Positions 4,189 to 39,805 of a stretch of 64,000 bases of DNA are shown here, piece by piece (position 1 is the stretch's first letter; each line of letters starts with the position of its first letter). The notes beneath the pieces were generated by a model. That model did no database searches and was not told the DNA's origin. It was given only the letters and a program-made list of their open reading frames with translations. Source of the stretch: Candidatus Eisenbacteria bacterium (lineage in GTDB: Bacteria > Eisenbacteria > RBG-16-71-46 > CAIMUX01 > JAHJDP01). The position numbers were made by a program, and so were the translations under genes. The stretch lies in assembly GCA_018831195.1 (NCBI GenBank), contig JAHJDP010000077.1, forward strand, positions 1 to 64,000. The letters are read 5' to 3'.

Positions 4189-4535
4189 TGGAGGCGGCGG
4201 GAATCGAACCCGCGTCCGAAAGAACCTCAGCAAGAACATCTACGTGTGTAGTCCGTCGTTTAATCTCGCAGTTTAGAACTCCGGCGGACGGGATTTCCAA
4301 ACCACCAGCCTGTTAGTTTCGCTACTGCTTCCAGGCGCCGCAGCGGCTAGCCCACCTATATGGCGCCCTACCAGACCCCCGGCAGGCGCGGGATCTGGGG
4401 ACGAGCTACCTAACGAATTAGGCGGCTAATGCTAACTCAGTGTCAGCAGTTGTTTTTTCCCACTTGTTTAACGAGCCAGCGGGACCTCGACACGCAGTCC
4501 AAACCTTGTATTCTCCGTCGAAACCTTTCGCCCCC
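4189..4535 (-). ncRNA. ssrA: tmRNA
   Basis: The 5' end GGGGGCGAAAGGTTTCGACG and the 3' T-arm GGTTCGATTCCCGCCGCCTCCA are both present. The seven 5' bases (GGGGGCG) pair with CGCCTCC at the 3' end, with one G-U. The messenger part reads, before its stop TAA, the tag ending TTADTELALAA; the LAA end is the usual proteolysis signal. The exact resume codon cannot be fixed by eye. The 3' CCA is not encoded (CTGG follows the discriminator A). At 347 nucleotides it is a normal one-piece tmRNA. Its protein partner SmpB is encoded at 17574-18080, about 13 kb away. Confidence 0.96.
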
Positions 4536-4874
4536 TTCTTTCATAGATAGAAACTTCGCCACAAATTATTCACTCATGCTAACGAATATCATACACCACA
4601 TTGCCTTCGTTGTTGCGCTCTTTGCGAACGCCAATATGGAGATTCGCACCGGCACGGCCGAATTTTCAGCAAATCGGGGTTTCCCCCTCGGTCTGGCGTA
4701 TCTTATTGCCAAACTTGTTATTATGGCACCACAGCGCACAAATAACTCCCGCGTCATTCAGCTCTCGAAAAATAAATCGTGAGCCTGGAATCAGCGCCCG
4801 AACCATGGGCGGCCAGCTCTGTCCAATAATCTTCGGCCAAATCCTGCTACCGAATCAAGATTGAAGAGCTTGCC
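4536..4874. other. Intergenic stretch upstream of tmRNA
   Basis: This 339-base gap separates the tmRNA 5' end from the stop of the next minus-strand gene. It should contain the tmRNA promoter (TATCTATG about 15 bases before the RNA is a weak -10 candidate). Short open frames on both strands show no family features. Confidence 0.4.
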
Positions 4875-5936
4875 CTAGCGACAGATCCGCTGAGCCTTAT
4901 AAAACCATCCCGGCGAGTTCGTGGCTGGGGTATCTTTGATTTTGAATTGCCAGACGATTTCCCCGGAATTCGTTATCTCGAATATCACCGAGTCGTCTGT
5001 ATCCTCGAGAACCCCGACTATTAGGGTATTTCCGTTTGGCAGCCGATCTCCATCTCGCGAAGTTCTGAGATGATCACGATGATATTGCCATACCGGCTGC
5101 CCGATATTGCGGTCAAGTTCGACAATCTGGTACGGAGCGTCCCGCTGCAGGCAGATTAGAAGCTGATTGCCGTTTTGCATCTCTGGCTCATGAGGATCAT
5201 GACCCAATGGATTGGTCGTTGGATAGAGCTCCTTCCAGTCAAACTCCCAAACGACAGCGCCTTGCGGCTCGATCTCGATTGTCAGCGAGAAGTTCCTCAA
5301 ACTCAACAATGTGTTTCCATTCTGCAGCCGGGTTGCCGCATTCGTATGAATCCATCCTTCGCGATCGCAACTAATATATGGTTCATTATTGTAATGGTCA
5401 CTTGCCTGCCAGGACCAAATAACTTCTCCCTGGGGATTTACTTCTTTGACTTGTGTATCCCCAAACCGGTCCCCGGCGCCAAAGACATAAATCGTGTTTC
5501 CATTCGGCAGCCGGTCGGCATCATGAGACACTTGACTGTCGAGATGAGACCACGCAACATCCCCGTCTCGATCAATTTCGTAGATGCCATAACGCGGTAA
5601 AACAAAGAGGATGTTTCCGTTTGCGAGTAGCTCAACATCCATCCCCGGCTGATGATACGATTTGACATCATCGGGAATGTCATACTCCCAGACGATCTCC
5701 CCGTTCATGTTGACTTCAACAAGACGCGGGGCAGTAGTATCGTGCAAATCGGCGAAGAGGGTCGTGCCATTGCAGGCCTTTGTGGCGTCGTAGACATCGA
5801 CGTAGAACTCTCCCGCCTGGATTTCAGGTTCGGGAGAACCGGTTGGATTGTTGTCTTCTTCACAAGCTGAAAGGACGACAAAGAGAATTATTGCGAGAGC
5901 TAATGTTGCCGGGGTAAAGCGCGGCCGGTTAATCAT
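4875..5936 (-). CDS. Lipoprotein, arylsulfotransferase-like beta-propeller
   Basis: The 353-residue product begins with a lipoprotein signal: hydrophobic residues 11-24 and lipobox LSAC with Cys25, followed by EEDNN. The rest is repeated short blades such as LVEVNMNGEIVWEYD, VKEVNPQGEVIWSWQ, TIEIEPQGAVVWEFD and IFEITNSGEIVWQF interspersed with RLPNGNTIYV-type strands, the pattern of arylsulfotransferase (ASST) and PQQ-like propellers. A HDPHEPEMQNGNQLL segment resembles the conserved His region of ASST-like proteins. Whether it transfers sulfate is not shown; many such proteins are uncharacterised. The stop is followed by the tmRNA region, so the gene is monocistronic. Confidence 0.8.
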   Translation of the reverse strand: MINRPRFTPATLALAIILFVVLSACEEDNNPTGSPEPEIQAGEFYVDVYDATKACNGTTLFADLHDTTAPRLVEVNMNGEIVWEYDIPDDVKSYHQPGMDVELLANGNILFVLPRYGIYEIDRDGDVAWSHLDSQVSHDADRLPNGNTIYVFGAGDRFGDTQVKEVNPQGEVIWSWQASDHYNNEPYISCDREGWIHTNAATRLQNGNTLLSLRNFSLTIEIEPQGAVVWEFDWKELYPTTNPLGHDPHEPEMQNGNQLLICLQRDAPYQIVELDRNIGQPVWQYHRDHLRTSRDGDRLPNGNTLIVGVLEDTDDSVIFEITNSGEIVWQFKIKDTPATNSPGWFYKAQRICR

Positions 5937-25505: not shown

Positions 25506-26975
25506 TCACCTACACCCCCCCCCGCCGGATGGAGCGCCGGAAATGCCCCCAACTCCAGTCCCTGGAGGCAAAACAGGGCTTTCCCGGATCCACGCTCCCC
25601 CCTTTTCCCCTCCGGCCAAAGCCGACTGGAAGGCTTGGGCCGCGGATTGCCAGGTCGAAAAGTGGTCCAGATTGAGCTTGATCAGGTCATCCATTTGAGT
25701 TTGGTACCAGCGCCGGACCAGGATCGCTTCTTGCGGGTCAAGGATCGCTAGATGCGGCGACGCCTCCTCCCCGCCGGATGAAAAATAGCTTTTCAACGCC
25801 GCCGCCAGATCCTCCTCCTTCAGACCGAGGCCGTCCCCCTCTCCCGTGAGCAGCCGGGCCGCCCCACGGGCTGTCAGAAAGTAGGTCTCATAGCGATCCG
25901 GATGCAGCGCGCTGGGGATTGCAAAAATTCTGGTTCCGGGATCTCCCGCCTCCACATCATGGGTCTCAATCTGGATATTCCAACGCGGCCGGCGCCTCCT
26001 GATTTCAGTCGATTCGAGCACGAGCGCGGCCAGCTCCGATTCCAGCGGCGTCCAGGAGAGATCCCTGATCTCCTCCAAAAAGGACTGCCGGCGCTTGGAG
26101 TTATCCGTCAGCGGCTTGAAGTATTGTCCGACCCTCTGTCGCAAATTTCTGGTCTTGCCGACATAGACAATTTCATCCGCCTTATTGATAAAGCGATAGA
26201 CGCCGGGTGTTTCCGGCAATCGATTCAGATCGGCGGCTGAGAAATTGAAGGACCCGAAGTCGACCGGTTTCCCCCGCCCTTCGCCGCTCTCAGCGAATCT
26301 CTTGAACGATTTCCTGTCGGATGTCGTTTCCGCGCAGGTTTCCAAGAGGGCCACGGCCCCCGCGAGTTCACCGGAAAGCCCGTCGGGAAGGGGCTGCGAA
26401 GAGCCCAAGGCCGCCGGCCACATGCTTGGCGATTTGAGGATCATCGGCTCCGGACGGGGCCGTTTTTGTTTGTCGCAGAGCCAGCGAAAGGCATCCCGCA
26501 GGTCATAGATGGGGGATGAGATCTCGGGGATGGCCAAAATCTTCTCGGCCGATTCCAACCACCGCTGCACCCGGGCCGAATACGGCGTGTACAGCGGCCC
26601 CGACTCGATCATCCTGAGTTTCTCAACGGTATCGGGAGATCGGAGGGTGCCGGTCCAAGATGGCCCGGGGCCCTCGGCTGTCACCGGCGCCAGCATCATC
26701 CGCCAAAGCCAGGGAGTCCGTTCATGACCGCGGGCGACTTCTATGACAGCAACCGATCCGGGGAACCAGGCTTCCTCCTGCGGCTCTTGGTAACTCCAAT
26801 GGCCGGGGTTGATCTCTTGGCAGCGAGGTTCGGTCGAGAGGATCGAGCGGACCAACCGGTCGGCGCCGTTGGGTGAGACAAGTCTTAGGAAGCGCCGGGC
26901 AAGGTCCGACGCCGGGACCGAATCGCCGGCCTCCCGAAGATGATCAACGATCGATTGTTTTAGGTCCTGGGCCAT
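25506..26975 (-). CDS. GIY-YIG nuclease-domain protein, UvrC-like but not UvrC
   Basis: The 489-residue protein starts best at 26975 (GGAG 8 bases upstream). Residues 1-65 look like a helical/winged domain (VPASDLARRFLRLVSPNGADRLV, ending INPGHWSYQ). Residues about 255-340 form a GIY-YIG domain of UvrC/Cho type: LPETPGVYRF, DEIVYVGKTRNLRQRVGQYF, with the later ELAALVLESTEIRRRRPRWNIQ glutamate. The UvrC UVR motif, RNase H-like endonuclease V domain and HhH are all absent. It resembles fusions where a GIY-YIG domain accompanies an exonuclease, but no DEDD motif is visible in the N-terminal half. The C-terminal tail is Gly-rich. A repair role is inferred. Confidence 0.8.
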   Translation of the reverse strand: MAQDLKQSIVDHLREAGDSVPASDLARRFLRLVSPNGADRLVRSILSTEPRCQEINPGHWSYQEPQEEAWFPGSVAVIEVARGHERTPWLWRMMLAPVTAEGPGPSWTGTLRSPDTVEKLRMIESGPLYTPYSARVQRWLESAEKILAIPEISSPIYDLRDAFRWLCDKQKRPRPEPMILKSPSMWPAALGSSQPLPDGLSGELAGAVALLETCAETTSDRKSFKRFAESGEGRGKPVDFGSFNFSAADLNRLPETPGVYRFINKADEIVYVGKTRNLRQRVGQYFKPLTDNSKRRQSFLEEIRDLSWTPLESELAALVLESTEIRRRRPRWNIQIETHDVEAGDPGTRIFAIPSALHPDRYETYFLTARGAARLLTGEGDGLGLKEEDLAAALKSYFSSGGEEASPHLAILDPQEAILVRRWYQTQMDDLIKLNLDHFSTWQSAAQAFQSALAGGEKGGAWIRESPVLPPGTGVGGISGAPSGGGGCR

Positions 26976-27256
26976 TAAGTGACTCCATAACAAAATATTG
27001 ACAAACCTGGTAAAATGGTGTAAGCATTAGGTACATTCATGCATCCCTAACGGGGGGATGACTGCGCGAGGTCAAAGAGTAGTGGAGCGAGGCGGTGAAG
27101 GATCGCCGTCGAGGATCTGGAAAGAGTCCAGAGTGAACCGCGCTCCCAGTCCCCCGTAGGACCTCAAAGTTAGCCCGTGTATGAATCCTAATGGCGGGGG
27201 ACTCGTGAAAACGGCCCCCGTCGTTTTCTTGATGCCTCAGCGTTCCCCTCCCGTCG

Positions 27257-29296: not shown

Positions 29297-29633
29297 ATCC
29301 TCTCGTATGCGGTTTACGAACCGGTGATTCGAGCCCTGAATGCGGATCGTGCACCGGTCCCTCGAATAACGGCGGCGATAGAGCAGCGCCTTCGTTAATC
29401 CTAGTGGGGTCGCGGCCGCTTCGCAACGAATGGGATCTTTCTTTCACTCGATGACGAATAATAATGATCATCCGGCGGATCATCGGCTGCTCCTGCCTGG
29501 GGCGCCGTTAATGACTCTGGATCACTGCGTCCGGCGGGGTCATCGAGACGACCGCGATCACTGCGCTTGCCAGGATCTCATCGAGACGACCCCGATCACT
29601 GCGCTTGCCAGGATCTCATCGAGACGACCCCGA
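29297..29633. other. 337-base gap ending in a minisatellite
   Basis: Between the SGNH gene start and the stop of the upstream barrel gene there is no gene. The notable content is the 38-base tandem repeat (listed separately) whose copies fill the last 90 bases; the rest shows nothing I can identify beyond the expected SGNH promoter. Confidence 0.5.
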
Positions 29634-29650
29634 TCACTGCGCTTGCCAGG
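29541..29650. repeat. 38-base minisatellite, about 2.9 copies, overlapping a gene end
   Basis: Units at 29541-29578, 29579-29616 and 29617-29650 (partial) each begin CATCGAGACGACC and end GCGCTTGCCAGG, differing at one base. A half-unit (GGATCACTGCG) sits just before. The stop codon (29634-29636) and last codons of the minus-strand barrel gene lie inside the third copy, so repeat growth happened at the gene's end. Confidence 0.88.
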
Positions 29651-31511
29651 TCACAGAAACGGCTCCACCCGATCGGATCTCACCCCCCATCAGATGCATC
29701 CGCCAGCCGGCACCCCAATGAATCCCTCCTGCCAGCCGCCGGATTCCCATACCCAGCCATAACGACGGCGAGGTCGTGGGGATCGGAATCCACCCCGACG
29801 GATCGGGGAAAAGGCCGATCCATCGCGTTCCCCCGGTATCTCCCGATCCCCTTCCGGCAACCCACTGCAGGCTCCCCCGCGGAGATCTTTCCGAGCCATG
29901 AAACTCTACAAAATGATTCCCTTTGGAAGGCCCCGCATCTAGCGCCGTTCCGTCGCCTGCGGAGCCCGGTTCGGTTTCGGAGGTCGATTGACCCAGACCC
30001 GCACGCAGGCCGATGGAACGGGACGCATTGTCTAAAAGATGGAGATTACATGTTAAACGGGAAAGATCCGCCGTCAGCCGCCGCCCCAGACCCTGTGTCC
30101 AGCGGGGTTCCAGACTATGCCGCACAGCCAAACCCAATGTTGGTTGGAATGGAATCCCGCGCGTGAAGGAAATGTATAGGTTGAGATCCCTTCGATGAGT
30201 TGGAAGCGGCTTCGCATCGGTCCAGCGCGCTTCATTGGCCGCGTGCAGTTGCATCGTGGCTCCCGGGCGGAGCCTCCACTCGGCGGCCACCCGCATCATT
30301 CTGACACGCCCCGTCGGCGGCCGGCGGGGATCGCAACTCCATTCCCAATCCACTTCCCGATCCCACCGGAAAGCGACCTCCAAACGCTTTAGGGATGGCA
30401 TATCCCGGTTTCCTTTCCAGAGCGCCGAGAGGGCCCAAGCCTCGATTCGATCCTCTCCGGCCATTTCATAGGAGACCCGCCCCCGCGGACCGGCGTGGGA
30501 TCCGGCCAACGAGAGCAGGGGGATCGGCCTGGGAGTCGTCTTTAACAATAATACACCGAGCCAGGAGGATGGATTCGGAGTCGAATGGAAAAGATCGAAG
30601 AGAATCCAAGCGCCATGAATCGTTGAGAAAGCTTCCGGCTGGGCACCGCCGTCGATCTCGCAGTTCTTCTCGCCTCGGCTGGGTTTGCGGGCCCAGAGAC
30701 CACCGATTGTCAGTCGCCGCAATCCTGGCGGAGTCACCGCGCCGGCGCCCACGATCGGCGGTTCGATCTCCCCAAGCCATGACCATTTCTTGACCCGCAT
30801 GGCCATGGGACTCAAAGCGAGACGGCCGCCCCAACCGGGATCCCTTTCACCCAGTGAGAGAATCAAACCCTCGGCCCAGCTCAACTCCAGATGCCCGGCC
30901 TGGAAGGGCCCCGCGGCAAGAGAGCCTTTGACATTCGCGCCTGAGATCTTCTCCGGATTTGTCTTTAACAAAAGATCGCCATGCAAAGGAAACCGCCCCC
31001 CACTCCACCCGGCGCTCCCCTTGAAGCGAAGCGGCTCGGTTGTGGAGCTGTGAACCCATCGCAACGAAATCCTGTGGCTCCAGGAGTTCGAGAATTTTTG
31101 CAGCCCCGTGGACTTGGCGAAGGCCGGATCGGGGCGGATGTGCTCAGGGGCTGACGTTACAGAATCGGCCGCTTCGAGGTATCCCGCACCATTTAACAGG
31201 TCGAGAATCCCCATTTCCTCCAGTAGGTCAAGCGTGCCTTCCTCTTGGGCTTCGTCGATCACCAGCGGATCGGCGGGGGTGTCCGCCGGAGTATCGGTAA
31301 CGGCGGCGACGATGGTGGCGGCGGGGTTGTCGGCAGGGGCATCGGTAACGGCGCCGGCCGGGGTGTCGGCAATGGTGTCCGTATCGGCATCGGCCGGGGA
31401 GATAAAATGTATCATTCCCATGCAGGAAAGGGCGGTCAGGACGGCAACCGGCCGGAGTCGTTGAAGGACGTGGCGGAATTGGAGCCTCTGGGGCCACTGA
31501 TGACGCGCCAC
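29634..31511 (-). CDS. Predicted outer-membrane barrel protein with HhH-like segment, third gene of a coupled envelope cluster
   Basis: I place the start at a GTG (31511) directly after the preceding gene's TGA; GGGGG in that gene's last codons gives the ribosome site. It yields a signal-like segment (PVAVLTALSCMGMIHFISPADA), an Ala/Asp/Thr/Pro-rich repeat (units like DTPADTPAD), a short helical motif LDLLEEMGILDLLNGAGYLEAAD that recalls a degenerate helix-hairpin-helix, then about 500 residues of alternating strands rich in Trp, Gly and Arg (for example SHRISLRWVHSS, LKRLEVAFRWDREVDWEW, HRRDLNLYISFTRG) ending VSVTWQAQ. I read it as an outer-membrane beta-barrel. No family is recognised. Confidence 0.65.
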   Translation of the reverse strand: MARHQWPQRLQFRHVLQRLRPVAVLTALSCMGMIHFISPADADTDTIADTPAGAVTDAPADNPAATIVAAVTDTPADTPADPLVIDEAQEEGTLDLLEEMGILDLLNGAGYLEAADSVTSAPEHIRPDPAFAKSTGLQKFSNSWSHRISLRWVHSSTTEPLRFKGSAGWSGGRFPLHGDLLLKTNPEKISGANVKGSLAAGPFQAGHLELSWAEGLILSLGERDPGWGGRLALSPMAMRVKKWSWLGEIEPPIVGAGAVTPPGLRRLTIGGLWARKPSRGEKNCEIDGGAQPEAFSTIHGAWILFDLFHSTPNPSSWLGVLLLKTTPRPIPLLSLAGSHAGPRGRVSYEMAGEDRIEAWALSALWKGNRDMPSLKRLEVAFRWDREVDWEWSCDPRRPPTGRVRMMRVAAEWRLRPGATMQLHAANEARWTDAKPLPTHRRDLNLYISFTRGIPFQPTLGLAVRHSLEPRWTQGLGRRLTADLSRLTCNLHLLDNASRSIGLRAGLGQSTSETEPGSAGDGTALDAGPSKGNHFVEFHGSERSPRGSLQWVAGRGSGDTGGTRWIGLFPDPSGWIPIPTTSPSLWLGMGIRRLAGGIHWGAGWRMHLMGGEIRSGGAVSVTWQAQ

Positions 31512-31513
31512 GA

Positions 31514-32575
31514 TCAGAACCCCCAAAAGAATGAGATCCCCGGTGTCCAACCCAAGACAGGGTGGCCGTGCATCCAAAGATCAAATCCGGTGCGAACGAA
31601 GGGAAGGTGCAGGATGAAATGAAAAATCTCAGTTCCCAAGGTCAAATTATAGGCCGTGGCCAAGGCCAGGCGCGGAGTGGTGTTCGACGAAGCACTGCCC
31701 GCCGAAGCGATGCCCGACGAAGCACTGCCCCCCGAAGCGATGCCGGCCGAAGCGCTGCCCGCCGGAACACTGCCCGCCGAAGCGCGATCCAAGGGCGCCT
31801 CCGTCGCCTGGGCTGGGGTCCACCTGATCCCGACCACCGATGAACCCGTATTTTGGGATGTTTGACGTATCTGAACATCGACAATAAGACCGGCCGGCGC
31901 CGACAGCCGGCTCCCAACGCACCAAGTCCACGACCAATGACCCTCTCCATCAAAACTCTGTACCATCCGGTCGACGCTGAATCCTCCATTCACTTCAACA
32001 AATCCCCGGCAAATGCTGATACCCGAATTTCCACCCCACCCCACGGGCTCACTGCGGCCGGCCGCCTGCAACCCGCCCCCTCCACACCCAATCCACCAGA
32101 CGGCCGGCGGTTTACCTTTCACAAAACGGAAATCACACCACGCTTCCCGGTATTGTTCACCCGAGAGCAAGACACCCGAGAAAAATCCCGACCAGTGATC
32201 GCCGGACAGACCGGTCTCAAATGTCATCGAAGAGAGTTCAGCGATTTGAAAGGGGCGCCAAGCGGAAATCCGGCCGCTCCAGATCGCCGGACCGGGTTCC
32301 CCCCATTCCCCATTCCCTTCATGCCCTCCCTGCTCTCCTCTCCCTCCCTTTGCTCTTATCCAGCGAGCCGTTGTTTGATCGGTGAATAGATCGGGCCAAT
32401 GCCAGATCGGATCTCCTGATCCCCAAACCGGTCGCAAAGGAGGGGGACCGGCCCCGGCGGCGGTGATGGCACACGTGAGAAAACCGGTCGCCAGGGCGAT
32501 CCCGAACAGGATCCTCGTGTATCGACCAACGATCCTTTCGGTGAATGCTTTATCAAAACTTTCCATGCCGGACAT
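31514..32575 (-). CDS. Predicted outer-membrane protein with Gly/Ser/Ala repeat linker, second gene of a coupled envelope cluster
   Basis: The 353-residue product has an N-terminal hydrophobic segment (residues 20-42, YTRILFGIALATGFLTCAITAAG) consistent with a signal peptide. The mature part is very rich in Trp and Gly (PVWGSGDPIWHWPDLF, WIGCGGGGLQ, GHWSWTWCVGSRL) with alternating strands; residues about 262-295 are a Gly/Ser/Ala linker encoded by a 15-base minisatellite; the end reads FHFILHLPFVRTGFDLWMHGHPVLGWTPGISFFWGF in pieces typical of a barrel's last strands with aromatic terminus Phe. Its ATG lies one base after the stop of the upstream gene. No known family recognised. Confidence 0.65.
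   Translation of the reverse strand: MSGMESFDKAFTERIVGRYTRILFGIALATGFLTCAITAAGAGPPPLRPVWGSGDPIWHWPDLFTDQTTARWIRAKGGRGEQGGHEGNGEWGEPGPAIWSGRISAWRPFQIAELSSMTFETGLSGDHWSGFFSGVLLSGEQYREAWCDFRFVKGKPPAVWWIGCGGGGLQAAGRSEPVGWGGNSGISICRGFVEVNGGFSVDRMVQSFDGEGHWSWTWCVGSRLSAPAGLIVDVQIRQTSQNTGSSVVGIRWTPAQATEAPLDRASAGSVPAGSASAGIASGGSASSGIASAGSASSNTTPRLALATAYNLTLGTEIFHFILHLPFVRTGFDLWMHGHPVLGWTPGISFFWGF
31688..31785. repeat. 15-base minisatellite inside the barrel-like gene
   Basis: About 6.5 imperfect units of 15 bases, form CGAAGCACTGCCCGC, run from 31688 in register with the minus-strand reading frame. They encode the pentapeptide series (A/S)-G-(S/I)-A-S, giving a Gly/Ser/Ala linker just before the last strands of the protein. 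Confidence 0.85.
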
Positions 32576-32576
32576 C

Positions 32577-34355
32577 TCAGGGAGTCACACCGAGAGAAGC
32601 GCTCCACTGCTGCGATCCCTTCCCCTCCGTCCAGGATTTGACGCAGACCACATAGAGTCCCGGAGCGACACCCCGCCCTGATTCGCCTTCTCCATTCCAC
32701 CAGAAGGCCGGTTCACCGGCTTTTCTCTCCTGGAGACCCAAGGTACGGACCCGGCGTCCTGAAATGTCAAAGACCTCAGCAGACCAGGTCCGTCCTTCCG
32801 GCGTCGCGGGGGGGAGAATGAGACAGCCGGGGGATTCGCCTCGGGTCAAGACCGTTGGCGTGATGAGGAGTTTTCCCTGGTATAAAGATTGTTGCTCTAA
32901 AAAGCCGGGAGACCCGGGTGTCGGGCCGTGGGGAGAAGGAATCCAATCAGCAATGGGGTGAGACGGCCTCTCCACCGAACGTCGTTCCAACGAGATCCCA
33001 TCACCGGCGCCGGGCGGTGGTGTATAAGATGCGACATCGGAGATTTCACCGGACGCCTTCGATAAAACCAGGATGTCCGCGACCCCGATCTCTTCTTGAA
33101 TCGTATTGTTTAAGGACGGCCAAGTGCCGGAGAGGGCAAGGATTTTTGAAAAATCGAAGTCAGGTCTGGCCGCCACAAGGGCTACCGGATCTTCTGACAA
33201 TATAAAGCGGTCATCGCGAAAAATGGGCCGGGAGTCATCAATTAAAATCCGACGTCCTCCCGCATCCTCCAGACCCCACCCATTTAACGAATAGATCTCT
33301 TCCCGAACGAGGATTTCGACCCACTCCTTCTCCCCATCCAGCGGGTCATATTGTATTTCCACAATCGCGACGGGTCCGGTCCCGACATAAAACCCGGTCC
33401 GGGCAAGAAGGGTGTCGGAATTTAGACAGAACATTATCTCACGTTGATAGAAACCGGGTTGAGATGGCGCCTTTTCTTCCCAATTGAAACTCACCGGGCT
33501 ATCACAATAGATCGCTTCGGGTAGCGGCGGGTGGAGCGGCCTTCCATCCCATGTGATGACCGCCGGCGATAGGACGACCGGGTCAAGGCCGGAATGGACA
33601 AGTCGCGCCGACCATCCGATCGGTTCATCCGGGGAGGCGACACGGGGATCAGCATGCGGGCTTTCCAGGAAAAGTGTCTGCGGCGACTTGTTCGGTTTCC
33701 CCGGTGAGGGTGAGGACAGGGCTTGAAAATCCCTTGAATTATCGCCGGTATCATTCCCATCGGGCATGCGGCCGAGCGCCTCGCCGGATGGCAGATCGGG
33801 CGCGGGCAGCCCCTCATAGTAAACCGGGTACTCCAAAACACCCCATCCCACTAGATCGATAACTTCATCTCCACGGCGCACGCGGGCGGCATCTGGGCCA
33901 TTTTGGAGATGCAGTGTCGTCTCAAAATCGGGAGAGCCGGAGTACCCTTCTGGTACACCGCCAATCCAGAGAAACGCTCCTGGATCCAGAACCAAGTTTG
34001 AGGGGGCCGCCCACTCCACCGACCAGCTCTCGGGCCGCGCGCCGTTTCCAGATTCTAAGATGATGTCATCCAATACGATAGAAGACAGCCCGGCGTTGAA
34101 AAGCTCCACATATTCTTTTCCCGTATCAGACCCCTGAGGGTCATAGAAGATCTCATTAATCACAACCCGGCTTTCGCCGTCGATGGAACACACGGCGGTG
34201 CTCTCGGGGCCCGCTAAATTTCCGCAACACTCTGTTATTTCAGAAGTTGCGCTGCACACCGCAATCCATCCGCCCGACAATCCAAGACAGATGAAGCCGA
34301 GCATCAGCAGCCGCCACCCCACCCATCCGGCTATTCCCCAGTCTCTCCGCTGCAT
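32577..34355 (-). CDS. Secreted lamin-tail-domain protein with FlgD-like C-terminal region, first gene of a coupled envelope cluster
   Basis: The ATG at 34355 has GGAG 7 bases upstream and starts a signal sequence (GWVGWRLLMLGFICLGLSGG); the longer frame is rejected. Of 592 residues, about 65-200 are a lamin-tail domain (VVINEIFYDPQGSDTGKEYVELFNAG, SNLVLDPGAFLWIGG), and a second one follows at about 330-470 (VAIVEIQYDPLDGEKEWVEI, PIFRDDRFILSEDPVALV). The C-terminal 90 residues resemble the FlgD/Por-like tail (VFDISGRRVRTLG, WWNGEGESGRGVAPGLYVV) but lack the Asn-Pro-Phe entry. It is separated by a single base from the next gene, so all three genes of 34355-29634 are coupled. Confidence 0.8.
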   Translation of the reverse strand: MQRRDWGIAGWVGWRLLMLGFICLGLSGGWIAVCSATSEITECCGNLAGPESTAVCSIDGESRVVINEIFYDPQGSDTGKEYVELFNAGLSSIVLDDIILESGNGARPESWSVEWAAPSNLVLDPGAFLWIGGVPEGYSGSPDFETTLHLQNGPDAARVRRGDEVIDLVGWGVLEYPVYYEGLPAPDLPSGEALGRMPDGNDTGDNSRDFQALSSPSPGKPNKSPQTLFLESPHADPRVASPDEPIGWSARLVHSGLDPVVLSPAVITWDGRPLHPPLPEAIYCDSPVSFNWEEKAPSQPGFYQREIMFCLNSDTLLARTGFYVGTGPVAIVEIQYDPLDGEKEWVEILVREEIYSLNGWGLEDAGGRRILIDDSRPIFRDDRFILSEDPVALVAARPDFDFSKILALSGTWPSLNNTIQEEIGVADILVLSKASGEISDVASYTPPPGAGDGISLERRSVERPSHPIADWIPSPHGPTPGSPGFLEQQSLYQGKLLITPTVLTRGESPGCLILPPATPEGRTWSAEVFDISGRRVRTLGLQERKAGEPAFWWNGEGESGRGVAPGLYVVCVKSWTEGKGSQQWSASLGVTP

Positions 34356-34641
34356 CTCGATCTCCTTCCTTGTAAAAGATCCCCAAACCGGAATACTTCC
34401 GTGTTCCCCTCCCACCGGCTATCCCACCGGGTGTCGGAAGAACGACGAGAAAGATCGTAAAACGACAATAGTGCAGGGATCGCACCACCTCGCCTTAGGT
34501 GATGGGATGGCGGGGCCGATATTTTAGACAGGATGGGACTCGGTTCCGACCACCGAGTCGGGGAGCCATCCCTATACTTGAGATGCAAAGTCGCGTCGCC
34601 GATGGCCGCGGGAGCCGCTCCGTCACGAGGGGGTAGCGAGC

Positions 34642-37140
34642 ATGAACAAAAATGTTTCTTTCACATTAGGCCTCATAATTGTGCTACATTTTCTCCTTCC
34701 CGCGCAATCCTGGGGTGCAAATGGCGCCAGCCGGCTTGATCCGCGGTTGCAAAGCATTATGAACGATCGTGAAAACGGCACAGCCATGGAACGAGTGGCG
34801 CATCTGCTTGAAGTCTCCGCCTTGCCCGATGACCGGATACCCTGCTTCATCCGGGTCACTGATCCCGGGAGCATCGCGGCTCTCGGCATTCCCGCTCAAA
34901 CCGTCGCCGGCTCGATTGTAACGGCCCGGCTGACCCTCGACGAGATCGCAACCCTCTCCACACAGAACGCCGTCACGAGTATCTCGATGGCCGTGCGCGC
35001 CAAGCCGCTGCTCGATCTTTCCATCCCCGCAACTTATACAGATGAGGTTCATGACGGGAATGGCGCGATTCCGCCTGTCTATTCGGGTATCACCGGTGAA
35101 GGGGTCATCGTCGGCATCATCGATACGGGAATCGATCCGTATCATGACGACTTCTGGGCTAATGGCGACTCCCGCATCCTGCAGATTTGGGATCAAGATG
35201 ATAATTCCGGCACGTCCCCCAGCGGATTTGGTTATGGCACCGAATGGGATACAGACGACATCGAGAATTCAGATTGCGATTCAAAAGATACGCACGGTCA
35301 CGGAACGCATGTCGCCGGAACGGCGGCCGGCAACGGCGCGGCGACCGGGCATGGCGAGCCGGCTTATACATATGTCGGCGCGGCGCCGAAGGCCGACATC
35401 ATAGCCGTCAAGACGACATTTTTTACGACGGATGTCGTGGACGCGGTCGAGTATGTCTTCTCAAAGGCGACCGCCCTTAGCAAATCCGCCGTTGTCAATC
35501 TCAGCCTCGGCACACATTACGGCCCGCATGACGGCACCGCCGACTTCGATTTGGCCCTCGACGCCCTGGCCGGTGAGAATAGAATCATCGTCGCCGCCGC
35601 GGGCAATGAACAGGGGGATCGCATTCACGCGGAAGTCACCGTCGCCCAAGGGGGAACCGGCAGCGCTACCTTTATCATTCCGAATTACGTCGCCAAAGTC
35701 GCTTCCGACAATGACATTGTCGCCATTGACGCCTGGTACACCGGCGATAGTGAACTGGCCGTCACCTTGACGTCTCCCAACGGGCATGTGGCCGGCCCTG
35801 TCCCCTTCGGCGACTCAGAAACCTACAACACCGTCGATGGATTTGTGACCATCGACAACGCCACAACCAACCCCGTCAACGGCGACGAAAACTTATACAT
35901 TGAGATACGGGATGCGATGTCCGTCAATCCGCCGGAGCAGGGAACATGGATCCTCGAATTTGAAGGCACCGTTGTGCCCGCGGGTCTTCTCCCTGCCGTA
36001 GCCGAGATCGACCTTTGGTTATACGTTGCAACGATCGCGAGTTCCCCCTACTTCAATCTCAGCTCCCAGGAACAAGAGATCGTCGGTTCTCCGGCAACCG
36101 CCGATTCGGTTATCGCCGTTGCGGCATGGGTGACCAAGAAGATGTGGGCCTCAATCGACGGCAATTCATACCAGTACAGCCCCGCGCCGGTGCTCAACTC
36201 CATCGCAGACTTCAGCAGCATCGGCCCCCGCCGGGATGGCGTGAATAAGCCCGACGTCGCCGCTCCGGGCATGGGGATCGTGGCGGCCCTCTCCACCTAC
36301 GCCTCCTATCAGGTCGAGTATATCGATCCGGACGGCAAACATTTCCTCAACCAGGGGACCAGCATGGCCTGCCCGCATGTCGCCGGCATCGTCGCTCTCA
36401 TGCTTGAAAGCAACGGCAGTCTGACAAAGGGAGAGATCATGGCCCAGCTTTCCAATACGGCCAATACGGATGCCTTTACAGGGTCGGTTCCCAATTCGAC
36501 CTGGGGTGTTGGAAAGATTGACGCCCTCGGCGCCACAAGCTGGACCACGCCGGTCATGATCTACGGGATGGAAGCCCAGCCCGAGCCTTGGGGAGTGCGC
36601 GTGACCTGGGCCGTCAACTCAGATATCACCATTGAAGGCTACCGGATCCACCGGGCGCTCGATGACGGCTCTTATCCGGATGATCTTCTGAATCGGGCTC
36701 TTCCCATTATTGAAGGTCTGGCCGCAGAGCTCGACGGCTCCGCCGATGACCGGGGTTTAACCGAGCCGGGGCGCTATGCCTACTGGATAGAGGCGATCCA
36801 TGACGGCAAATCCGCTGAGATGGCGGGTCCGGTCTATGTCGACTGGTCGCCCACGGCGACGGGGCGCATCGTCTTTCATCCGGCCTCACCGAATCCCTTC
36901 ACGCCGAATACGACCATCCGGCTGGACCTGAATTATAAGACACGGGTCCGCGTCGACATACTCGAACCCGGTGGGCGCCGGATCTGCACCGTTGCTAATC
37001 AAATGTATCAGCCGGGAGAAGTCCGCATCGTCTGGGACGGCCGCGATGGGACGGGACGGCCGATGGCCCCAGGTCTCTATTTCACCTGGATCAGAGCTGG
37101 GGACCAAGAGCAGATTGGCCGCTTGGTTTTGCTTCGCTAA
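34642..37140 (+). CDS. Secreted subtilisin-like serine protease (S8) with FlgD-like tail, copy 1
   Basis: The 832-residue protease has a signal peptide (residues 1-25), an N-terminal prodomain-like region, and the S8 triad: Asp161 in GIIDTGIDPYH, His220 in THGHGTHVAGTAAG, and Ser574 in GTSMACPHVAG, with the oxyanion Asn in AAAGNEQG. A roughly 180-residue insert (DNDIVAIDAWYTGDSELAVTL onward), resembling a P-domain-like beta-sandwich, splits the catalytic domain before the Ser. A fibronectin-like segment and the FlgD/Por-like tail (ASPNPFTPN, GGRRICTV, WDGRDGTGRPMAPGLYF, VLLR) follow. It is exported and probably surface-bound or released. The neighbouring gene is a same-length paralogue. Confidence 0.94.
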   Translation: MNKNVSFTLGLIIVLHFLLPAQSWGANGASRLDPRLQSIMNDRENGTAMERVAHLLEVSALPDDRIPCFIRVTDPGSIAALGIPAQTVAGSIVTARLTLDEIATLSTQNAVTSISMAVRAKPLLDLSIPATYTDEVHDGNGAIPPVYSGITGEGVIVGIIDTGIDPYHDDFWANGDSRILQIWDQDDNSGTSPSGFGYGTEWDTDDIENSDCDSKDTHGHGTHVAGTAAGNGAATGHGEPAYTYVGAAPKADIIAVKTTFFTTDVVDAVEYVFSKATALSKSAVVNLSLGTHYGPHDGTADFDLALDALAGENRIIVAAAGNEQGDRIHAEVTVAQGGTGSATFIIPNYVAKVASDNDIVAIDAWYTGDSELAVTLTSPNGHVAGPVPFGDSETYNTVDGFVTIDNATTNPVNGDENLYIEIRDAMSVNPPEQGTWILEFEGTVVPAGLLPAVAEIDLWLYVATIASSPYFNLSSQEQEIVGSPATADSVIAVAAWVTKKMWASIDGNSYQYSPAPVLNSIADFSSIGPRRDGVNKPDVAAPGMGIVAALSTYASYQVEYIDPDGKHFLNQGTSMACPHVAGIVALMLESNGSLTKGEIMAQLSNTANTDAFTGSVPNSTWGVGKIDALGATSWTTPVMIYGMEAQPEPWGVRVTWAVNSDITIEGYRIHRALDDGSYPDDLLNRALPIIEGLAAELDGSADDRGLTEPGRYAYWIEAIHDGKSAEMAGPVYVDWSPTATGRIVFHPASPNPFTPNTTIRLDLNYKTRVRVDILEPGGRRICTVANQMYQPGEVRIVWDGRDGTGRPMAPGLYFTWIRAGDQEQIGRLVLLR

Positions 37141-37168
37141 GGATTATTCCACCAAGTGATAACCGGCG

Positions 37169-37206
37169 GCAAACGGGGCGGGAATCACCCGCCCTGTTTG
37201 CTTGTT
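37169..37206 (+). terminator. Hairpin terminator between the two subtilase genes
   Basis: GCAAACGGGGCGGG (37169-37182) pairs with CCCGCCCTGTTTGC (37188-37201), 14 pairs with one G-U, around a 5-base loop, followed by TTGTTCC. It lies 29 bases after the first protease stop, so the paralogues are likely separate transcripts. Confidence 0.75.
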
Positions 37207-37306
37207 CCTCAACGGCCCCTTCCCCTTTTACTTGTGACTCATTTGTCTATTACCTATTCTCAGATGAATAGCTCAAGATGCCTCAAATGAGAAAGGGGAT
37301 CAGATC

Positions 37307-39805
37307 ATGCCTCGACCGCGTTTCCTTCCGGCTTTAGCGGTCTGCCTTCTGCTCGTCAGCACCGCCGCCGTGGCGGGCGGGATGCCTGCGTCGAAGCTGC
37401 ATCCGGCCCTGCGAATGGCGCTCAAGGGGCTTGATGAAGAGAGCCCTTTCGGCAAGAACGCCGGTCCTGATTCCTATTTTAAATTGATGGCATCCGACGA
37501 CGGCCGGCTGCCCTGCCTTATCCGTCTTGTGGCGGATGGGATTTCCGCCGAAGCGATCGGGATCCCCATCCAGACCCAATCCGGCCGGATTTGCACGGCG
37601 CGGTTAAGCCCCGAGGAGATCGACGATCTGTCGAACCGACCGGAAATCACCTCCATTTCATTGGCGGTGCAAGCGCGCCCCCTCCTCAATCGTTCCGTAC
37701 CTGAAATGGGCGGAACCGCTGCGCACAATGCCGACGGCGGGACGCCGCCCGTTTATAATGGATATGCCGGTGAGGGAATCATCATCGGCATCATCGATTC
37801 GGGGATCGATCCGTATCATCCTGATTTTCAGGGGAACGGGACGACCCGGATCCTTTCGATCTGGGATCAGATGGATGATTCCGGCGATCCGCCGGTGGGA
37901 TTCGACGGGGGGAGCGAGTGGACACAGGCGGAGATTAATAATCAAACCTGCACAGCGGTGGATGACGACGGGCACGGAACGCATATCGCGGGGATCGCCG
38001 CGGGAAACGGCTCGGCGACCGGCAACGGCCAGGCGGCTTATCGGTTTGTGGGCATGGCGCCCGAAGCCGATCTCATTATTGTTAAAACATCCTTTTATAC
38101 CGACGACATCATCGATGCCGCATCTTATATTTTCGGCCGCGCTGATGCCCTGGGGAAGCCGGCCGTGGTCAACCTCAGCTTGGGCAGCCATTACGGCCCT
38201 CACGACGGGACCGAGGATTTTGATATCGCCTTTGAAAATTTGGTGGAGCCGAACCATTTGATCGTCGCGGCCGCCGGCAATGAATTGGGCGATAGCATTC
38301 ACGCCGAGGTAAGTGTTGAACAGGGCGGCCTGGCCACCGTGACTTTTGACATCGCGCCCTATGATCCACTCGCCGGAACGCAGAATGATTATTTTGCGAT
38401 CGACGCCTGGTATGACGGCAGCGCCGAGCTCACCATCACGATGCAGACGCCGAACGGCGCCATACTGGGTCCCATCTTCTACGGCGAGGTTCTTGATGAA
38501 ATGACCGGCGATGGGGATGTCTATATCGATAATGGTTACTGGGATCCGCCGAACGGGGATGAAAACTTTCACATTTACGTTCTCGACGTCGACGCGGCGC
38601 ACAGTCCCGCGCCCGGTACTTGGACGATCTACATCGAAGGGGCCGTCGTCCCCACGGGCCTGGTGCCGGTTGAAACCGATCTCTGGGTCTATCTATGGTC
38701 GGGACCGATCCCAAAATTTGTGCAAGGTGTCGAAGAGGAAGAAATCGTCGCCTCACCGGCAACGGCTGACTCGGTCATCGCCGTGGCGGCCTATGTCACC
38801 AAACCGAATTGGCGGTCGATCGACGGCAATATCTATTACTACCAGGGCTCCATCGAGAACGGCGGCATCGCCGATTTCAGCAGCCCCGGTCCCCGCCGTG
38901 ACGGCGTGCTGAAACCGGAGATCGCGGCGCCTGGAATGGGGATCAAATCCGCCCTCTCATCCGACGCTTTTATGTACGACGCCTATATCGATCCCGATGG
39001 CGTCCACTTCCTCACGCAGGGAACAAGCATGGCGGCTCCGCATGTGGCGGGTACGCTCGCGCTGATGTTAGAGGCGTTCGGTTCCCTCACCGCCGCGGAC
39101 GCCTTGGATCAGTTGACCCGGACCGCCCGCGCCGATGATTTTACCGGGAATGTCCCCAACGCTCGGTGGGGTTACGGAAAGATCAATGCATCGGCCGCGA
39201 CCGATATCAACACGCCGATCATGATTGAGGGGATCGAAGCGACCGCCACTGCATGGGGCGTTCGCCTTGCTTGGAACTCCCCGGGTGATATTCAGGCCTC
39301 ATCATATCAGCTGCTGCGCGCCCTCGATGACGGATCGGCGCCGGGCGAGCTTATACAAAACGCCAAGATGATCGCCGTTGTGCCGCGGGACGGCGCCGGG
39401 ATGGTATGGGAGGATCGTGATCTTGTACAACCCGGCATTTACGCCTACTGGATCGCCGCCGTGTTTCAGGGACAGGTTGAATATCCGGCGGGTCCGGTTT
39501 ATATCGACTGGAGCGGCCCGGCCGGTCTCAATGCCGAGCTCTTTCAGGCGATGCCGAATCCTTTCCGTCCACAAACAACCTTGCGGCTGAATCTCCCCCG
39601 CGCCGGACGGGTCGCCGTGGAGGTGATGGATCCGGCGGGACGGCGCATTCGCACATTGGTGCAGGATTGGCTGCCGGCGGGGTTGCACCGGCTTATTTGG
39701 GATGGCCGGGATGAAGAGGATCGGGAGGTTCCCTCGGGGTTATACTTTGCCCGCGTCCAGGCGGCCGGTAAGGTCCGCGTCGGAAGGCTCGTGCTGATTC
39801 GATGA
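37307..39805 (+). CDS. Secreted subtilisin-like serine protease (S8) with FlgD-like tail, copy 2
   Basis: Also 832 residues, collinear with the upstream protease over the whole length. Signal peptide residues 1-24. Triad: Asp164 in GIIDSGIDPYHPDF, His in DDDGHGTHIAGIAAG, and Ser574 in GTSMAAPHVAG; oxyanion Asn in AAAGNELG. The same catalytic-domain insert (NDYFAIDAWYDGSAELTI) and tail (AMPNPFRPQ, AGRRIRTLV, WDGRDEEDREVPSGLYFARV, LVLIR) are present. The pair arose by tandem duplication; the copies have diverged most in the prodomain and insert. GGGGATCAGATC precedes the ATG. apgM follows 17 bases later. Confidence 0.94.
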   Translation: MPRPRFLPALAVCLLLVSTAAVAGGMPASKLHPALRMALKGLDEESPFGKNAGPDSYFKLMASDDGRLPCLIRLVADGISAEAIGIPIQTQSGRICTARLSPEEIDDLSNRPEITSISLAVQARPLLNRSVPEMGGTAAHNADGGTPPVYNGYAGEGIIIGIIDSGIDPYHPDFQGNGTTRILSIWDQMDDSGDPPVGFDGGSEWTQAEINNQTCTAVDDDGHGTHIAGIAAGNGSATGNGQAAYRFVGMAPEADLIIVKTSFYTDDIIDAASYIFGRADALGKPAVVNLSLGSHYGPHDGTEDFDIAFENLVEPNHLIVAAAGNELGDSIHAEVSVEQGGLATVTFDIAPYDPLAGTQNDYFAIDAWYDGSAELTITMQTPNGAILGPIFYGEVLDEMTGDGDVYIDNGYWDPPNGDENFHIYVLDVDAAHSPAPGTWTIYIEGAVVPTGLVPVETDLWVYLWSGPIPKFVQGVEEEEIVASPATADSVIAVAAYVTKPNWRSIDGNIYYYQGSIENGGIADFSSPGPRRDGVLKPEIAAPGMGIKSALSSDAFMYDAYIDPDGVHFLTQGTSMAAPHVAGTLALMLEAFGSLTAADALDQLTRTARADDFTGNVPNARWGYGKINASAATDINTPIMIEGIEATATAWGVRLAWNSPGDIQASSYQLLRALDDGSAPGELIQNAKMIAVVPRDGAGMVWEDRDLVQPGIYAYWIAAVFQGQVEYPAGPVYIDWSGPAGLNAELFQAMPNPFRPQTTLRLNLPRAGRVAVEVMDPAGRRIRTLVQDWLPAGLHRLIWDGRDEEDREVPSGLYFARVQAAGKVRVGRLVLIR

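Follow-up and report, generated by a model that had tools for sequence, protein, structure and literature searches.

Barrels that hold a protein at the cell surface are known from two kinds of outer-membrane (OM) machinery: in the type IX secretion system (T9SS) a PorP-like barrel holds a surface protein, as in the SprF-SprB pair and with type B C-terminal domain (CTD) cargo (PMC9143113), and in the Bacteroidota β-barrel assembly machinery (BAM) the BamG barrel holds the surface protein BamH (PMC12578637, PMC12611786). Transformation of Riemerella anatipestifer needs a co-encoded surface-type protein and barrel, plus a separate helix-hairpin-helix (HhH) protein (PMC8459023). HhH domains touch DNA via backbone nitrogens (PMC9747964), and lamin-tail domains (LTDs) are known alongside an extracellular nuclease and membrane-associated hydrolases of the metallo-beta-lactamase and phosphoesterase kinds (PMC6085458); these statements follow the portions of the papers considered here. 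The transfer of DNA or other large cargo across the OM in Bacteroidota and related phyla is poorly known. We describe here a set of three genes, called A, B and C below, in a 64,000 nucleotide stretch of Candidatus Eisenbacteria DNA (positions 1 to 64,000 of the forward strand of contig JAHJDP010000077.1, assembly GCA_018831195.1), which we call the window. Gene A encodes a predicted secreted protein with lamin-tail domains, and B and C encode predicted OM barrels. The A-B-C order is kept in three candidate phyla or more, and the three genes form a real module that is predicted to lie in the OM. Each of its parts belongs to a known kind; neither the combination nor the HhH barrel is described in the literature searched. 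The module has no name in the libraries scanned or in papers on LTDs, HhH barrels, the T9SS in these phyla, and DNA uptake in Bacteroidota and Riemerella, a search that covered the open-licence part of PMC and so is no proof of novelty.

All three genes are on the minus strand. Gene A occupies 32577..34355 (ATG at 34355, stop at 32577; 592 amino acids), gene B 31514..32575 (ATG at 32575, stop at 31514; 353 amino acids) and gene C 29634..31511 (GTG at 31511, stop at 29634; 625 amino acids). The original prediction, made from the sequence of this DNA, placed the three at spacings of one and two bases with GTG opening the third, and reading the sequence confirms this (1 nt between A and B, 2 nt between B and C). 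A Shine-Dalgarno-like AGGAAGGAG can be read upstream of A (34362..34370, minus strand); a mechanical open reading frame (ORF) caller extended both A and C further at the 5' end.

Of the 47 class genomes, 37, counting that of the window, have strong homologues of A (best E <= 1e-25), and the region after A was read at 36 of these 37 places. Twenty have a B-size gene followed by a C-size gene, and one more has a C that runs into a stretch of Ns; the rest have one long ORF (six), B and then the contig end (four), or A or the contig ending first (five). The start of B is at -4 of the A stop, a 4-nt overlap, in 26 of the 31 class loci with a readable start, and a -4 start of C is present in 15 of 20. 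A wider survey, in which the lamin-tail portion of A served as the query, yielded 80 loci (numbered with L below), mostly from Candidatus Eisenbacteria, Krumholzibacteriota and Latescibacterota metagenome-assembled genomes (MAGs); some carry other labels. The contig truncates A in nine of them and stops within about 350 nt in six more, which leaves 65 evaluable loci. B follows A in 63 of these (46 recognised by held-out profiles, 11 more by profile and 6 by position only), the two exceptions being L192 and L194, the latter labelled archaeal. Among 57 judgeable loci, 51 have C after B (7 of the 51 are cut by the contig end); the six without it are four long-ORF loci, where C is unrecognised, and again L192 and L194. 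Held-out profiles recover 46/46 B and 36/46 C proteins at E <= 1e-3, and the gene junctions in the conserved loci are mostly 4-nt overlaps. The contig of L194 is labelled Candidatus Woesearchaeota; it carries an LTD protein resembling A, without B or C.

These counts bear on the simplest alternative, that A, B and C are chance neighbours with no common function. Single-sequence searches of 99 genomes matched B, and likewise C, in the window's own genome only, which would fit such an assortment and would also make B and C orphans; position and profiles overturn the orphan status, and chance neighbourhood, which we consider extremely improbable, is refuted by the gene-order counts, the order and the overlaps being kept over candidate phyla.

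The single long ORF found after A in six of the 36 class loci could be taken for a fusion of B and C. The B part is recognised by profile in five of the six (E 3.9e-8 or better) and weakly in L056, three of the six are about 1,800 amino acids long, far above the length of B plus C, and the C part is unrecognised by profile in all six, so that we do not claim a fusion. A small gene lies between B and C in L129 (12751-13554), L132 (12768-13559) and L176 (3235-4026), which from its motifs we take to be phosphoesterase-like; in L140, B and C are separated by an equally large gap.

Protein A matches Pfam family PF00932 (LTD) in two stretches (E 1.7e-14; 54.6 bits against a cut-off of 34.3). The first lamin-tail domain comprises residues 62-172 (33840..34172, minus strand) and a second, weaker repeat, whose limits are approximate and come from the second Pfam stretch and alignment A1, about residues 326-440 (33036..33380, minus strand). 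The C-terminal tail (32625..32783, minus strand) matches the Ig-like family FlgD_ig (PF13860, E 3e-8) and is a possible T9SS sorting domain, so the earlier description of A as a lamin-tail/FlgD-tail protein was correct. The genome is that of an organism with T9SS parts: SprA is over its cut-off in 37/46 class genomes, among them the window's genome G000, where the TIGR04189 match on contig C32 reaches 548 bits with its neighbours in frame; PorV_fam matches occur in 46/46 class genomes (14 in G000), and G000 has at least 150 TIGR04183 sorting tails. On the contig that carries A, B and C (C77), six of the ten FlgD_ig matches overlap TIGR04183 matches, among the matches listed and compared by eye.

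Two further kinds of protein were seen around the A homologues. Small proteins, some with an LTD, end in WGxxKx(2,3)[YF][RK] in L035 (10452-11063), L039, L048, L051, L053 and others; there are 12 distinct tails of this form in the loci and none of the reversed motif, and the tail is possibly a sorting signal. A membrane protein of about 700-750 amino acids with an EWxxRRRxGL-like tail often lies upstream of A (L039 9117-11381, L054, L056, L060), and upstream of C in L115; its VWA matches are weak.

Protein B is rich in Trp and Gly, ends in ...SFFWGF and has no match in library scans of Pfam or NCBIfam. An AlphaFold2 model of it (P0002 with 41 relatives; predicted template modelling score (pTM) 0.62, predicted local distance difference test score (pLDDT) 63.6) has about 14 strands, of which the first four and last four are confident. 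Comparison with known structures by Foldseek and VIA returns only OM barrels near the top; the VIA Z values are 17.0 for OmpG, 16.4 for CymA, 15.4 for TodX, 15.3 for PorV (8gl6_F; rmsd 3.4, 228 residues aligned), 14.9 for BamG and 14.7 for FadL, and with Foldseek alone PorV ranks only 24th. Because OmpG, FadL and BamG score similarly, the match to PorV gives the fold class only. Window B does not match the PorV/PorQ family NF033709 (curated cut-off 90 bits), and its relatives reach at most 78.2 bits (L109), under that cut-off; the relatives that link to PorV_fam (L035, E 1.9e-8; L103, 2.9e-13; L102, 2.2e-18; L109, 8e-22) are likewise all below the curated cut-off. We predict from the model that B is an approximately 14-strand OM barrel of the PorV/FadL type, in agreement with the original prediction of a Trp/Gly-rich OM barrel. 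A tandem repeat with 15/30/45-nt periods lies within B at 31688-31784; it codes for an Ala/Ser/Gly-rich stretch that has low confidence in the model.

The same model raises the idea that the set assists envelope biogenesis, as BamG-BamH does in the Bacteroidota BAM; a FadL-type B would bind a surface protein and help to fold or insert others. The B model does resemble BamG-type chains (9hiv_F, Z 14.9; 9hjm_F, 14.6; 9n2d_B, 14.3), but PorV and FadL match it equally well, HhH and lamin terms are missing from the available portions of two BAM papers, and the fast divergence of B and C is unlike that of an essential core part; we think such a role quite improbable.

This divergence is such that window B and C find almost no pairwise matches among those of the order relatives. 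Window B matches a B profile built without it weakly (E 8.6e-5) and window C (P0003) a C profile built without it weakly (E 2.7e-4), each being the best among the window ORFs and shuffles, and the B and C profiles do not recognise one another. Both proteins keep the landmarks of their families. The last strand of B has the motif HPVLGWTP (31541..31564, minus strand), conserved as HPxLGxTH; in alignment A4, H338 and L341 are kept at 90% or more and G342 is invariant. In C, AGHLELSWAEGLILSLGERDPG (30840..30905, minus strand) is the counterpart, by profile alignment, of the family GDxxxxxGQGLxxW strand, AGHLELSWAEGLILSLGER aligns with the family GQGL strand, and in alignment A5 G206 is invariant and G215 nearly so. 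These shared landmarks support the weak profile matches of window B and C to their families; for C, position is the main evidence. One row of the hhalign comparisons, P0003 against the B set, is spurious (9 columns only).

Protein C likewise has no match in scans of Pfam or NCBIfam. In relatives it opens with a ComEA-like HhH (PF12836, E down to 9e-15). An AlphaFold2 model of the C of L138, an Eisenbacteria-like relative (pTM 0.64, pLDDT 73.7), has HhH helices at 50-123 followed by a barrel at 151-654 of roughly 22-24 strands. For window C we counted alternating-strand segments; it has 17 (z 3.5), the top value among the window proteins compared and equal to two relatives. This measure is supportive only, since B has a z of just 1.8 and one further window protein (4875-5936) one of 2.9. 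Window C is thus predicted to be a large OM barrel, from the model of the relative and from its own strand pattern, as had been proposed for it. Of the HhH-like segment also proposed, 11 of the 38 aligned C proteins have a recognisable form (PF12836 HHH_3 at E <= 0.1); window C itself has only a degenerate stretch at the site of the relatives' ComEA-like HhH, placed by position and sequence at about residues 84-130 (31122..31262, minus strand) and without a Pfam match. The accompanying statement that B and C belong to no recognisable family holds for the curated libraries and no further, as B groups with barrels of the PorV/FadL type and C is placed in a widespread family of HhH barrels. With barrels predicted for both proteins and the three-gene order conserved, neither of the two outcomes that had been named as refuting the original proposal (a structure prediction that shows no barrel, or relatives in which the genes are never neighbours) has come about, and the proposal is supported in part. 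A 38-nt tandem repeat (29540-29650; 2.9 copies, 98% matches) overlaps the 3' end of C, so that the last codons and stop of C are inside a repeat unit.

The best structure matches of the L138 model are ushers (Z about 17), TonB-dependent receptors and porins, and they suggest another role, the uptake of nutrients such as oligosaccharides or nucleotides through C as a TonB-like or porin-like pore, with B as a side barrel and A as a surface binder. Such barrel matches are by themselves unspecific, library scans of C detect neither a plug domain nor any other transport match, and the loci that were read show no recognised transport genes as steady neighbours; we therefore consider nutrient uptake unlikely. 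The C relatives appear to be large OM pores of no clear family, the barrel matches singling out none.

The C profile also finds full-length HhH barrels in other phyla. A PorV-like B adjoins C in 8 of the 19 such loci that were read and is one gene away in a ninth (L106), and the B profile recognises the PorV-like protein in 9/9 tested, at E 4e-16 or better in eight and 3.4e-12 in L109; A-type LTD proteins are present in two of the 19 (L106 and L109). C is present in 118 of the 148 genomes of the phylum of G108, where most families have it and no listed genome of family f220 does.

Some of these loci point towards DNA. In L113 (genome G176, 4320-5600) and L102 (G183, 4733-5827) the PorV-type B beside C is fused to a C-terminal ComEA-type HhH, which matches TIGR01259 at E 2.2e-36 and 4.1e-17, respectively, as well as PF12836, and only in these B fusions do we see the G-hydrophobic-G hairpin. 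A comEC gene is near C in G254, with an LTD gene and B in the same cluster (L109), where the run is LTD, B, C, FadL-like barrel, hydrolase, comEC (PF03772, E 5.7e-61). In family f73 comEC comes after C in all four genomes with C, its core domain lying 690-721 nt from C; a fifth f73 genome that was sampled has no C. If L109 and f73 are taken as two lineages, a rough binomial p for this adjacency is about 0.001 to 0.01 for 20 to 60 assumed lineages.

We propose, with a probability of about 0.4, that A, B and C form one OM complex whose ancestral job was most likely surface capture followed by the passage of DNA towards ComEC. A would be an exported protein, probably a T9SS substrate by virtue of its Ig-like tail, and loops of B would hold it at the surface, in the way that PorP-like barrels hold type B CTD cargo and BamG holds BamH; C would be a large pore beside them. 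OM barrels have both termini on the periplasmic side, so the HhH of C (and that of B in some phyla) would sit at ComEA's place, and it is from this position that DNA is suggested. In the window lineage C is nearly without the HhH, so that it may now handle a different substrate. The stronger claim, that HhH-barrel C and PorV-like B (plus A in several phyla) are the missing OM DNA-uptake channel of Bacteroidota and related bacteria, with capture by A/B, passage through C and a barrel-tethered HhH that hands over to ComEC, all with no type IV pilus secretin, we regard as doubtful; of the readings that fit, DNA uptake is the boldest, and it is not established.

A number of observations weigh against DNA passage. 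The family link of window C is weak by sequence and rests mainly on its position after A and B (aligned alone to the C family by hhalign, it has a probability of 4%), and no HhH is recognisable in it by Pfam or in a look for an N-terminal HHH_3; 27 of the 38 aligned C proteins, the window's included, have no HhH match at E <= 0.1. The hairpin glycines of an HhH are its DNA-contacting part, and the G-hydrophobic-G hairpin of DNA-binding HhH domains is in none of the C hairpins read. Proximity of comEC to C is found in just 4 of the 118 C-bearing genomes of the phylum of G108, all in family f73, and in G254; comEC itself is nearly universal, and in G000 it is on another contig (C28) than C (C77). 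The A tail matches FlgD_ig but not TIGR04183, both in NCBIfam and among the matches listed in G000, and several key cases are carried by single MAGs. With its glycines lost, the window HhH eroded and comEC mostly remote, the HhH of C may be a protein-protein domain.

Such a domain is part of a rival account that we take seriously while leaning away from it, namely T9SS-linked surface display with no DNA role, in which A would serve as an adhesin or as structural cargo, B would be the PorV/PorP-like barrel dedicated to anchoring it, and C an accessory barrel whose HhH makes protein-protein contacts as in GspK. The T9SS parts and tails in the genome, the missing glycines, weak T2SSK matches for C, the loss of the HhH in the window lineage and, in the portion of the paper considered, the cargo-barrel precedent (PMC9143113) all suit it. 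On the other hand, it leaves unexplained both the canonical ComEA HhH fused to B and the comEC gene beside C in two lineages, and B-C pairs occur without A in most of the other phyla seen. To return to capture and DNA passage: of the lamin-tail ligand with two barrels that had been proposed as an export or DNA-uptake type machine, the secreted LTD partner and the two barrels stand, and the type of machine is something we infer from real hints and against real counter-evidence.

The neighbours of the module in the window include, divergent from A, two subtilase paralogues in tandem (34642-39805), each of 832 amino acids with a FlgD_ig-like tail. Downstream lies a gene for a GIY-YIG protein (25506-26993; PF01541, E 1.4e-8), and in several of the order relatives C is followed by similar-looking genes.

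The set joins a surface protein of T9SS type to a PorV-like barrel and to a large barrel that carries a ComEA-like domain, and offers concrete genes for testing; because C relatives are in so many genomes of a further phylum, tests are possible outside the uncultured Eisenbacteria. Among described systems, the module can be set beside PorV/PorQ and the PorP-like barrels with type B CTD cargo of the T9SS, as in both the genes of a 14-strand FadL-type barrel and of a secreted protein ending in an Ig-like tail adjoin each other, here in a genome with SprA and many sorting tails. It differs in that B is under the curated PorV cut-off or unmatched, and in the third gene of the set, the large HhH-family barrel. 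BamG is also a 14-strand FadL-type barrel and holds a surface protein by its loops, according to the part of PMC12578637 used here, whereas A is an LTD protein and not a BamH-like lipoprotein, and no BamA was recognised beside A-B-C in the loci read. The HhH here is on OM barrels, while ComEA's is free in the periplasm, and the hairpin glycines of C, and in the window the HhH altogether, have been lost; with natural transformation the module nevertheless shares the ComEA-like HhH of the C relatives, its fusion to B in two genomes and the comEC neighbour in two lineages. The Riemerella transformation genes, compared by description only and from part of that report (PMC8459023), have other domains (DUF5689, CarboxypepD_reg) and an HhH protein not described there as a barrel, yet they too pair the gene of a surface-type protein with that of a barrel, with an HhH protein involved.

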